54,245 nt of DNA, taken from contig CAINRG010000057.1 in NCBI GenBank assembly GCA_903852585.1, positions 1 through 54,245 on the forward strand. The letters run 5' to 3'. The position numbers were made by a program, and so were the translations under genes. The stretch is from an uncultured Actinomycetes bacterium (GTDB lineage Bacteria; Actinomycetota; Actinomycetes; Nanopelagicales; Nanopelagicaceae). Of this stretch, positions 41,575-45,395 are shown piece after piece (within the stretch, counting starts at the first letter, position 1; every line of letters begins with the position of its first letter). The notes under the pieces are model-generated. The model did no database searches and was not told where the DNA came from. It was given only the letters and a program-made list of their open reading frames with translations.

Positions 41575-41639
41575 TGGGGGAATCGTATGGTCATAAAGGA
41601 GAAATTGCACCTCACTCGGCATTGGAGCAAAATGGCGCT

Positions 41640-42506
41640 GTGAATACGACCGGAAAGCGCCTCCTTTTGGTGCATGCACACCCAGATGATGAGACGATCA
41701 ACAATGGCGCGACGATGGCGAAATATGTCAGCGAAGGCGTAGCAGTCACACTTATTACCTGCACTCGAGGCGAAGAAGGCGAAGTTCTCGTCCCAGAGCT
41801 GGCCCACTTGGCAAGCAACGCAACCGATGCACTCGGTACACACCGGGAGAGCGAACTGGCAAATGCCATGAAGGCGCTAGGGGTTACCGATTTTCGTTTC
41901 CTCGGAGCCCCCCATACGAAATTCCGCGATAGTGGAATGATGGGAACAGAACAAAATAATCGCCCTGATGTTTTCTGGCAGGCAAACCTTGATGAAGCCG
42001 CAGCCGAACTTGTGAAAGTAATTCTTGAAGTAAAGCCCCAAGTGCTTGTCACATACGATGAATTTGGCGGATATGGCCATCCTGATCATATTCAGGCACA
42101 CCGCGTTGCAATGCGCGCAGCAGAAATTGCAGCCCCTCAATGGGAAATATCAAAAATTTACTGGAACACGATGCCACGTTCTGTCATGGAAAAAGGCATT
42201 GAAAAGATGAAGGAAATGGGTAGTGATTTCCTGGGCGTTGAAAGTGCCGACGACCTTCCCTTTGTAAAAGATGATGCTCTTGTAACCACTGTTATTAGCG
42301 CAGCCAAATTTGCTCCACAAAAGATTGAAGCGATGAAGGCTCATCCAACACAAATGTCTCTTGATGGTCCTTTTTTTGCTTTATCCAATAATTTGGGAAG
42401 TGAAGTTATGGGGGATGAGTACTACATCCTTGTTAAAGGAGAGAAGTCTGCTCCATTTGATAGTAGTGGACGTGAAACCGATCTCTTTAACGGGCTAAAA
42501 GGTTAA
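41640..42506 (+). CDS. mshB: GlcNAc-inositol deacetylase, mycothiol pathway
   Basis: A 288-residue zinc deacetylase of the LmbE family that removes acetate from GlcNAc-Ins in mycothiol synthesis. The zinc motif HAHPDDE begins the protein, and [14 protein letters not shown] is closer to MshB than to the mycothiol conjugate amidase Mca. GTG 41640 has GGAG 12 bases upstream; a TTG at 41622 is an alternative start. The 3' end overlaps the convergent CysS-like gene by 20 bases. MshB points to mycothiol as the main thiol, but MshA, MshC and MshD are not in the window under their usual form. Confidence 0.88.
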
Positions 42507-43890
42507 GGCCCAGGATTTCATCAAGTTTTACAAATATCCCTGCTTTTATCGAAGGAGAGATATTTGAATCTTTTTCAAGAGCTCGCAACTTTACAAGTGC
42601 GCGAGGAAAATCTAAGTCATAACGAATGAGCGCAAGATATTCCTCAACATCAACTTCCGTCGAAGCGTTAAAACCCCATTCGGATACTCGAAGTCTCCAG
42701 CGCTTAATGGTCTTATCTGCCGCCTTTATTGCATCCCATGAAAGATCAAGTTGGTTGCGGTATTTGCTCTCTAGAAATATGAGGCGTAGTGAAAGAGGAT
42801 CAAAGCCTCTATCGATGAGATCGCTGACCAGAACAACATTCTCGGAACTTTTTGCCATCTTTCGCCCTTCGAAAAGAAGATGTTCCCCGTGCAACCACAT
42901 GGAAACAACTTCGCGATGGGCAATTGCATTTGATTGCGCTCTCTCATTTTCGTGATGAGGAAAGCGAAGATCTATTCCTCCGATATGTAAATCCACACGA
43001 GAATCCAGGAACTTCATCGACATCGCAGAGCATTCGATATGCCACCCAGGAAATCCCCTTCCCCATGGTGAATTCCAGACAAGGTCATTTCGATTTCCCG
43101 CATTTTTCCAGAGAGCCCAATCGGCGTGGAATCTCTTCTCCCCATCATCTGTATATTCATAGCGATGACCCGGCTTCAATGAATCAAGACGATTGCCACT
43201 GATTGCGCCATACGATTCGCATGACTCTGCTGAAAAATAAACCGAGGAGTCGGCACCGACATATGCCGCTTTCTCCACAATAAGTTGGGAGATCATCTCT
43301 TGCATTAAATCGATTGACTCACTTGCCCGAGGAGATTTGTCGGCGCGAGTGATATTGAGTCGGGCTTGATCAATGAAGAATTTCTCTTCAAACTCACGAG
43401 CAATTTCAAGCGGATCCTTCTTTACCTTTTCTGATTCGCTCAATAACTTATCTTCAAAGTTTTCGCTCATGTGTCCAACATCAGTGATGTTTTGAACAAC
43501 AACAGGGTGCCAGCCATCAAATTTTAAGATTCGAGAGATCAAATCCGGTAGGAGGAATGTACGAAGATTCCCTACGTGAGCATCGCGATACACAGTTGGA
43601 CCACAACAGTAAATATGAATTCTTCGACCCATCGATGGCATCAATTCTTCAATTTCACGGCTCTGGGTGTTGTAGAGAAATAAGCCGGTTCCATGTTCAG
43701 GTGGCGAGATTTTCTTCCACAGAAGAATCTGCGATGGATCAAAGCTTAAGAGTTCACCATTTTTTCGGCGCACAGTCGTCAACGATTCAAGAACCCCGAG
43801 AAGATCTCGCCAACGGCCCTCATCGGGGCTCTCGTTGACGAGGCGAATGCTCACTTTTGAGCCGACGTCGCCAATTCCGGGCAGTTCCAT
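42487..43890 (-). CDS. CysS-like cysteine ligase with an SH3-like N-terminal extension and no usual C-terminal domain
   Basis: A 467-residue protein. Residues 1-65 form a small beta-rich domain ([31 protein letters not shown], then ILLWKK) similar to the SH3-like domain of Rv0428c-type acetyltransferases. Residues about 70-460 are a class I cysteinyl-tRNA synthetase core: C96 in [15 protein letters not shown]287, H312 and E316 are the zinc site, and HVGN and KMAKS the ATP motifs. The protein ends just after [11 protein letters not shown], without the usual last 50-60 residues of CysS. MshC-like activity or a specialised CysS are both open. A TTTAAT hexamer (minus strand, 43897-43902) is six bases before the ATG. 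Confidence 0.8.
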
Positions 43891-44001: not shown

Positions 44002-44322
44002 ATGACCTACGTAATCGCAGAACCGTGCATCGACGTAAAGGATAAATCCTGTATAGAGGAATGTCCTGTGGATTGCATCTACGAAGGTAACCGCATGCTC
44101 TATATCCAACCTGACGAGTGTGTTGATTGCGGCGCCTGCGAGCCAGTATGCCCAGTTGAGGCTATCTACTACGAAGATGATGTCCCAGCGCAGTGGAAAG
44201 ATTTCCGCGAAATGGGAACACAGTTCTTTGTTGAACTTGGTTCTCCTGGTGGCGCAAGTAAGGTTGGCGCAACAAATAGCGATCACCCAAAGGTTGTCGC
44301 AGCACCTCCAAAAGCTAACTAA
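44002..44322 (+). CDS. fdxA: 7Fe ferredoxin FdxA
   Basis: A 106-residue electron carrier with one [3Fe-4S] and one [4Fe-4S] cluster. Its cysteines lie in [19 protein letters not shown] and [16 protein letters not shown], the FdxA arrangement of actinobacteria. GGAAAGG is placed before ATG 44002. The dapC gene follows eight bases later, as in mycobacteria (fdxC-dapC), so it is a reliable synteny marker. Its partner oxidoreductase is unknown. Confidence 0.94.
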
Positions 44323-44330
44323 CTTTCTCC

Positions 44331-45395
44331 GTGAAGCTTCCAGATTTTCCTTGGGACACCCTCGCCCCTTATGGCGATAAGGCAAAGCTTCATCCTGGTG
44401 GAATTATTGATCTTTCAGTTGGGACTCCTGTCGACCCAACGCCAGAATTTATTCAAGCCGAACTCAACCGGGCATCTAACTCTCCCGGTTATCCACTGAC
44501 AATCGGCACTTCTGAACTTCGTTCATCAATGCGTTCGTGGGCAGAAAAAGTTCTTGGCGTTTCAGGAGATTTTGATCTTTTACCCACGATTGGATCGAAG
44601 GAACTTGTCGCATGGCTACCAACACTTTTAGAAGCAAAGACAGTTAATTATCCCGAGATTGCTTATCCAACGTATTTAGTAGGAGCTCTTATTGCCGGTG
44701 CGCAGGCAAAGACAGTTGAGATATCTCCGGACTCATGGAGTGCATCAGATCTGACATGGATTAATACTCCATCAAACCCAACAGGGCGAGTTCATTCCAT
44801 CGCAGAACTCCAAGCAGTCATTGATTACAGCCGAAGCCACAACGTCGTTGTTGCCTCTGATGAGTGCTATCTCAATTTCCCGGCGACGGGTGCACACACA
44901 CCAGTTTCTCTGCTCAAGGTGGCAGCAGGCAACAATAAGAATCTCCTCTCGGTTTATTCACTTTCCAAGAGAAGCAACCTCGCCGGATATCGCGCAGGAG
45001 TTGTTGTTGGTGATCCAGAACTAATTTCTCGCATCCGCGAAATTCGCAAGCATGCTGGAATGTTGGTTCCAGCTCCTGTTCAACGAGCCATGACCGTCGC
45101 TCTTGGCGATGAGAGCCACGTTCAGGAACAAGCAGGAAGATATGCAGCGCGAAGAGATTTACTTCGCCCGGCCCTTGAAAGTGCAGGATTCACGGTTGAA
45201 TTGAGCGACGCGGGTCTCTACATATGGTGCACTCGAAATGAAAGCGACTGGGAATCGATTACTTGGCTTGCAGATCGTGGAATTCTTGCCACCCCTGGAC
45301 GTTTCTACGGCGAAGAAGGAAGTCGCCATATTCGCGTCGCTTTAACATCCACAGATGCTCAAATTTCTGAAGCCGCAAAGAGAATTGCTTCGTAA
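44331..45395 (+). CDS. dapC: Succinyldiaminopimelate transaminase
   Basis: A 354-residue class I PLP aminotransferase that makes N-succinyl-LL-diaminopimelate from the product of DapD. The PLP lysine is in YSLSKRSNLAGYRAG near 220, and the substrate arginine is near the end in SRHIRVAL. The assignment to DapC rests mainly on its position after fdxA, which matches the actinobacterial fdxC-dapC pair. GTG 44331 starts eight bases after the fdxA stop, and the next gene begins immediately after its TAA. Confidence 0.9.
   Translation: MKLPDFPWDTLAPYGDKAKLHPGGIIDLSVGTPVDPTPEFIQAELNRASNSPGYPLTIGTSELRSSMRSWAEKVLGVSGDFDLLPTIGSKELVAWLPTLLEAKTVNYPEIAYPTYLVGALIAGAQAKTVEISPDSWSASDLTWINTPSNPTGRVHSIAELQAVIDYSRSHNVVVASDECYLNFPATGAHTPVSLLKVAAGNNKNLLSVYSLSKRSNLAGYRAGVVVGDPELISRIREIRKHAGMLVPAPVQRAMTVALGDESHVQEQAGRYAARRDLLRPALESAGFTVELSDAGLYIWCTRNESDWESITWLADRGILATPGRFYGEEGSRHIRVALTSTDAQISEAAKRIAS

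Follow-up and report, generated by a model that had tools for sequence, protein, structure and literature searches.

The window is a stretch of 54,245 nucleotides from an uncultured actinobacterium of the family Nanopelagicaceae. On its minus strand, an open reading frame encodes a protein of 467 residues that resembles cysteinyl-tRNA synthetase (CysRS, gene cysS) and is flanked by the mycothiol gene mshB and a ferredoxin gene (Table 1). An earlier note, based on the same DNA, had described an intact catalytic core with zinc ligands C96, C287, H312 and E316 and ATP motifs, an extra domain of about 65 residues of the Rv0428c type, a C-terminus that is short compared with a normal CysS, and an overlap with mshB; all four observations hold. 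The protein is called here CysS-III, a label coined in this analysis for a third CysS-like lineage.

Table 1. Features of the CysS-III locus (positions in the window)
Feature	Position	Strand	Evidence
CysS-III gene, 467 aa: SH3-like barrel, CysRS catalytic core and helical bundle, without anticodon-binding tail	42487..43890	-	TIGR00435 352.4 bits, cut-off 340
N-terminal SH3-like barrel, aa 1-66, homologous to PF24551 SH3_Rv0428c	43693..43890	-	
Catalytic domain of the CysRS type with helical bundle, aa 69-467, matching residues 1-398 of E. coli CysRS	42490..43686	-	Superposition: Z 49.2, rmsd 1.9 Å, 387 residues aligned
Zinc ligand C96	43603..43605	-	Invariant in alignment
HIGH-like motif HVGN, aa 105-108	43567..43578	-	
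11-residue CysS-III signature, aa 252-262; family-specific F254, H255, W258	43105..43137	-	
Zinc ligand C287	43030..43032	-	Invariant in alignment
Zinc ligands H312 and E316 (HHENE), flanked by family-specific R309 and R317	42943..42957	-	
KMSKS-like motif KMAKS, aa 344-348	42847..42861	-	
mshB, convergent, overlapping the CysS-III 3′ end by 20 bp	41622..42506	+	TIGR03445 359.9 bits, cut-off 224
fdxA-type ferredoxin, divergent from CysS-III, likely start 44002; conserved neighbour across families	44002..44322	+	
Aminotransferase (dapC-like) after fdxA; member of the conserved gene order	44331..45395	+	

All four zinc ligands are invariant among 43 aligned sequences and both ATP motifs are present. 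Judged by alignment and model, the protein retains the full predicted zinc and ATP site for the formation of cysteinyl-AMP. The AlphaFold model of the whole protein has a pLDDT of 89.6, and its synthetase part superposes on residues 1-398 of the 461 residues of tRNA-bound E. coli CysRS (1u0b_B), which leaves the 63 C-terminal residues of the E. coli enzyme without counterpart. This C-terminal part of CysRS binds the anticodon (Hauenstein et al. 2004, cited in PMC9976931). The structure of MshC (3c8z), the Cys:GlcN-Ins ligase, superposes at Z 45.0 and shares its C-terminal end point with the 467-residue protein.

The assembly that contains the window, of 1.35 Mb and 99% completeness, encodes three CysS homologues. 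Besides CysS-III, these are a canonical CysS of 461 residues on contig 31 (463.7 bits to TIGR00435) and an MshC of 419 residues on contig 40. The latter scores 471.4 bits against TIGR03447, 14 bits under the cut-off of 485.1; it is full-length, matches TIGR03447 best and is placed within the MshC clade of the tree. The suggestion that the gene in the window could be the cell's only CysS is therefore rejected, given the canonical enzyme on contig 31. The earlier note had also considered a divergent mycothiol ligase, which would be a second one acting with the adjacent MshB. The overlap with mshB, the CysS fold and the lack of the tRNA-binding tail would all suit such a function, which is nevertheless scarcely credible: the genome already encodes a canonical MshC, mshB is convergent and not co-transcribed, and CysS-III passes the curated cysteine--tRNA ligase model TIGR00435, fails the curated MshC model TIGR03447 by a wide margin (195.1 bits) and branches with CysS, outside the MshC clade, in a phylogeny built from 156 CysS-like proteins. 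The residues that follow the first zinc cysteine (window 43567-43605), where CGIT had been read as the mark of MshC as opposed to CGPT, do not separate MshC from CysS, since CGIT also occurs in E. coli CysRS and CGPT in the CysRSs of Elizabethkingia and Borrelia.

The proximity of mshB, which had been taken to favour a mycothiol role, is a matter of inherited gene order. CysS-III usually lies between fdxA and mshB, with fdxA adjoining it in nearly all genomes examined and mshB near in most. The order in relatives is mshB - vanW - CysS-III - fdxA - dapC, with CysS-III on the strand opposite to its neighbours, and a functional operon with mshB is rejected because the two genes lie on opposite strands and are separated by vanW in relatives. 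An exception to the usual place is found in a genome of 10.7 Mb (G142; L189:250-7970), where CysS-III, possibly a transferred copy, lies 20 bp downstream of a gene whose product gives a sigma-70 region 4-like match, with a UvrD-like helicase nearby and a penicillin amidase following.

The mycothiol pathway itself shows some peculiarities in this family. MshA is present in the window's genome (535 bits), as are MshB and MshC, though no convincing match to the mycothiol synthase MshD was found there. In several relatives (G015, G146, G191, G200, G209, G218, G251 and G267), MshD consists of the C-terminal half only, a single GNAT domain of ~160 residues. The last step of mycothiol synthesis may differ in the window's family. 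MshB matches in the family (f1) are mostly MshB itself, together with short distant PIG-L matches; a clear match resembling mycothiol conjugate amidase (Mca) is rare (one, in G036), unlike in larger actinobacteria.

In the tree of CysS-like proteins, the 65 CysS-III sequences form one clade with an SH-aLRT support of 100, nearest to the CysS of Chloroflexi, while CysS of the cell's own type (100) and MshC (98) form separate clades. By this phylogeny, CysS-III is a lineage distinct from both the cell's own CysS and MshC. Twenty-nine of its positions are near-invariant and rare in other CysS, including F254, H255, W258, R309 and R317. Among 247 genomes of the class with a completeness of at least 95%, CysS-III occurs in 39, namely 24 of the 26 sampled from the window's own family and 15 outside it. 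Canonical CysS accompanies it in 39 of 39, and the single genome of the 247 without a canonical CysS match is also without CysS-III. Two less complete drafts (G001 and G045) hold CysS-III and MshC with no match to canonical CysS; these absences are probably assembly gaps, yet they weaken the claim that CysS-III is never a replacement. The lineage is real and conserved, and no description of it was found in the literature searched.

The anticodon-binding tail is present in the 59 other complete CysS-III proteins and absent in all five members of a single clade (L001 and L113-L116; support 100/100), made up of the window's bacterium and its four closest sampled relatives and set on a long stem branch of 0.78. 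Alignment and model confine the loss of the anticodon-binding domain to this clade. In the non-truncated proteins, the tail positions R, A, R, D, R and D are conserved at 100% and G at 95%, as in ordinary CysS, so that tRNA-Cys was likely the ancestral acceptor of CysS-III. The truncated proteins share 28 of the 29 CysS-III-specific positions, and outside the tail they retain every generally conserved position; the acceptor-end chemistry therefore looks unchanged at the sequence level. The earlier note had named, as the case against its proposals, a decayed copy beside a standard cysS and mshC. Both genes are indeed present, but CysS-III belongs to a conserved family under purifying selection, measured within the truncated clade for the CysS part (dN 0.167, dS saturated) and for the SH3 part (omega ~0.20). 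Domain loss and the long stem branch would fit a gene copy that is in decay or has lost its activity, or a pseudo-enzyme with a regulatory role; the retention of all catalytic residues, the strong selection and the persistence of the gene in nearly all sampled members of a streamlined family make such an end state very improbable.

The N-terminal barrel has a traceable source. On residues 1-66 of the window's protein, PF24551 (SH3_Rv0428c) scores 16.5 bits, below its cut-off of 27; on fused or stand-alone homologues in relatives it reaches 29.2, 32.5 and 44.4 bits, and the barrel is 28-63% identical to its aligned homologues. AlphaFold predicts a small five-stranded barrel (pLDDT 89.9), whose best fold matches are GerQ (Z 8.1) and Gemin6, Hfq/Sm proteins and GatD (Z ~6.5-7), scores no higher than the background for a fold of this small size; an Sm-like or RNA-binding nature of the modelled barrel is suggestive only. 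In one relative (G034) and eight other rows of the comparison, a complete SH3-GNAT gene, recognised by PF24553 and GNAT models, lies upstream of CysS-III and mostly overlaps its start or ends a few bases before it. A lone SH3 reading frame lies upstream in 22 rows, and in 22 rows the SH3 part is fused in frame. On the tree, a minimum of five changes is required for the SH3-alone state, and the fused state needs three origins, a number forced by well-supported branches and constant across bootstrap trees (3-3). From these distributions, the barrel is seen to derive from the adjacent SH3-GNAT (Rv0428c-like) gene, the GNAT part having been lost repeatedly and the SH3 reading frame retained before at least three independent fusions to CysS-III. 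That SH3 remained next to CysS-III through repeated losses of GNAT suggests that the two are functionally linked. A caution is that overlapping neighbouring reading frames fuse easily, and the fusions could have arisen neutrally as genomes were compacted. The lone SH3 reading frames measure 60-80 residues and overlap or abut the start of CysS-III (L124, L127, L128 and others); gene callers likely miss them.

The tRNA repertoire bears on the nature of the acceptor. The window's genome has 43 tRNA genes over the Rfam cut-off, all of ordinary isotypes and one of them for tRNA-Cys; a tRNA-Cys pattern search likewise gave one per genome tested, and no tRNA gene lies near CysS-III in the window. An odd partner tRNA is rejected for the window's genome, since none is found among the 43. 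In minihelices, U73 alone suffices for cysteine identity (PMC9976931), which makes charging possible without an anticodon domain.

The favoured reading, with a probability of about one half, is that CysS-III is an accessory cysteine-activating synthetase of a third lineage that would charge tRNA-Cys (or an acceptor end related to it) irrespective of the anticodon. The zinc and ATP site would make cysteinyl-AMP, and the cysteine would pass to the 3′ end of tRNA-Cys or of a tRNA-like acceptor chosen by its end and stem and not by its anticodon, the barrel perhaps adding a contact with RNA or with a partner; the same chemistry would be expected in the relatives that retain the anticodon domain. 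The invariance of the catalytic and zinc residues and the predicted fold, which superposes on a tRNA-bound CysRS, count for such an enzyme, as do the constant coexistence with canonical CysS and the three independent fusions, which by sequence comparison tie SH3 to CysS-III. Against it, there is no obvious reason why a cell that has a full CysRS and a single tRNA-Cys should need a second enzyme blind to the anticodon. Candidate reasons for keeping two enzymes on one tRNA-Cys are a stress isoform or the supply of Cys-tRNA for non-ribosomal use, and a redundant CysRS is a plain possibility. Furthermore, R309 and R317 next to the zinc site and F254, H255 and W258 in the acceptor-contacting region could point to a different acceptor, and a stop at the end point of MshC is also expected of a ligase that does not use tRNA.

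Such a ligase would resemble MshC in forming Cys-AMP and in handing cysteine to an amine or another nucleophile, carried by a protein or a small molecule; its anticodon domain would have become dispensable and been lost. The end point shared with MshC and the full CysS found in every surveyed genome with CysS-III give this alternative real weight, to which the family-specific residues around the active site and the long stem branch of the truncated clade add. It is all the same the less likely course, as other CysS-III members have kept an intact anticodon-binding tail, conserved positions are otherwise unaltered in the truncated clade, and the neighbours reflect inherited order on the opposite strand and not a biosynthetic operon. 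A further alternative is modelled on the CysRS* of Desulfobacterales: CysS-III would charge a special or odd tRNA, distinct from ordinary tRNA-Cys, through altered acceptor recognition. Two features recall that enzyme (PMC7609411, PMC11415595): the anticodon domain is missing, and the region that contacts the acceptor (CP) is altered, in CysS-III at the FHADW motif. The ordinary tRNA set with its one tRNA-Cys and the lack of a tRNA gene beside CysS-III speak against a special tRNA of the CysRS* type, and the altered motif is common to relatives that retain the anticodon domain, so that this mode of action is improbable. Returning to the lineage as a whole, it may tentatively be proposed, at odds well short of even, that CysS-III is a dedicated cysteine ligase, or a supplier of Cys-tRNA, that serves a purpose other than ordinary translation. 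It would then be an enzyme common across a free-living actinobacterial family that ranks among the most streamlined, repeatedly partnered by the SH3/Sm-like barrel and, in the truncated clade, fully independent of the anticodon.

Genomes of 1.2-1.5 Mb rarely hold spare synthetases, and here almost every sampled family member keeps a second CysRS-like enzyme, with a single tRNA-Cys in those tested. Across living relatives, the locus offers a stepwise series from an SH3-GNAT neighbour to SH3 alone, then to fusion (at least three times) and finally to one fused clade that has shed its anticodon domain; this series lends itself to experiments on how a synthetase becomes independent of the anticodon. 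Because CysS-III passes the TIGR00435 cut-off, databases will label it a cysteine--tRNA ligase, which hides the lineage.

Compared with known systems, CysS-III shares with canonical bacterial CysRS (TIGR00435) the catalytic core, the zinc ligands, the helical bundle, an above-cut-off score and the fold; it differs in its N-terminal barrel, in the absence of the anticodon tail (in the truncated clade), in its separate lineage and in being additional to the cell's own CysS. With MshC it has in common the fold, the C-terminal end point and the zinc and ATP site, whereas it falls in a different clade and far below the family cut-off, and a canonical MshC is encoded elsewhere in the genome. The Rv0428c-type acetyltransferases (SH3-GNAT; PF24551 and PF24553; nearest NCBIfam model NF049894), whose full gene stands directly upstream of CysS-III in relatives, are the source of the barrel; in the window's protein the GNAT domain is absent and the barrel is joined to a synthetase. 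Published accounts describe the CysRS* of Desulfobacterales (Mukai et al. 2017, as described in PMC9437257, PMC7609411 and PMC11415595) as a second CysRS that lacks the anticodon domain, has a changed acceptor-contacting region and stands beside a canonical CysRS, three traits that recur in truncated CysS-III. The latter differs in being actinobacterial, in its fused barrel and in having sister members that retain the anticodon domain. No linked selC*-type tRNA was seen near the gene or among the tRNA genes genome-wide, nor was a selB* partner (a second selB) among the immediate neighbours; the absence of the linked tRNA means that CysS-III is not a member of a CysRS* system on present evidence. 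By analogy, CysRS* is the closest described counterpart of truncated CysS-III, which may work like it in being anticodon-blind.
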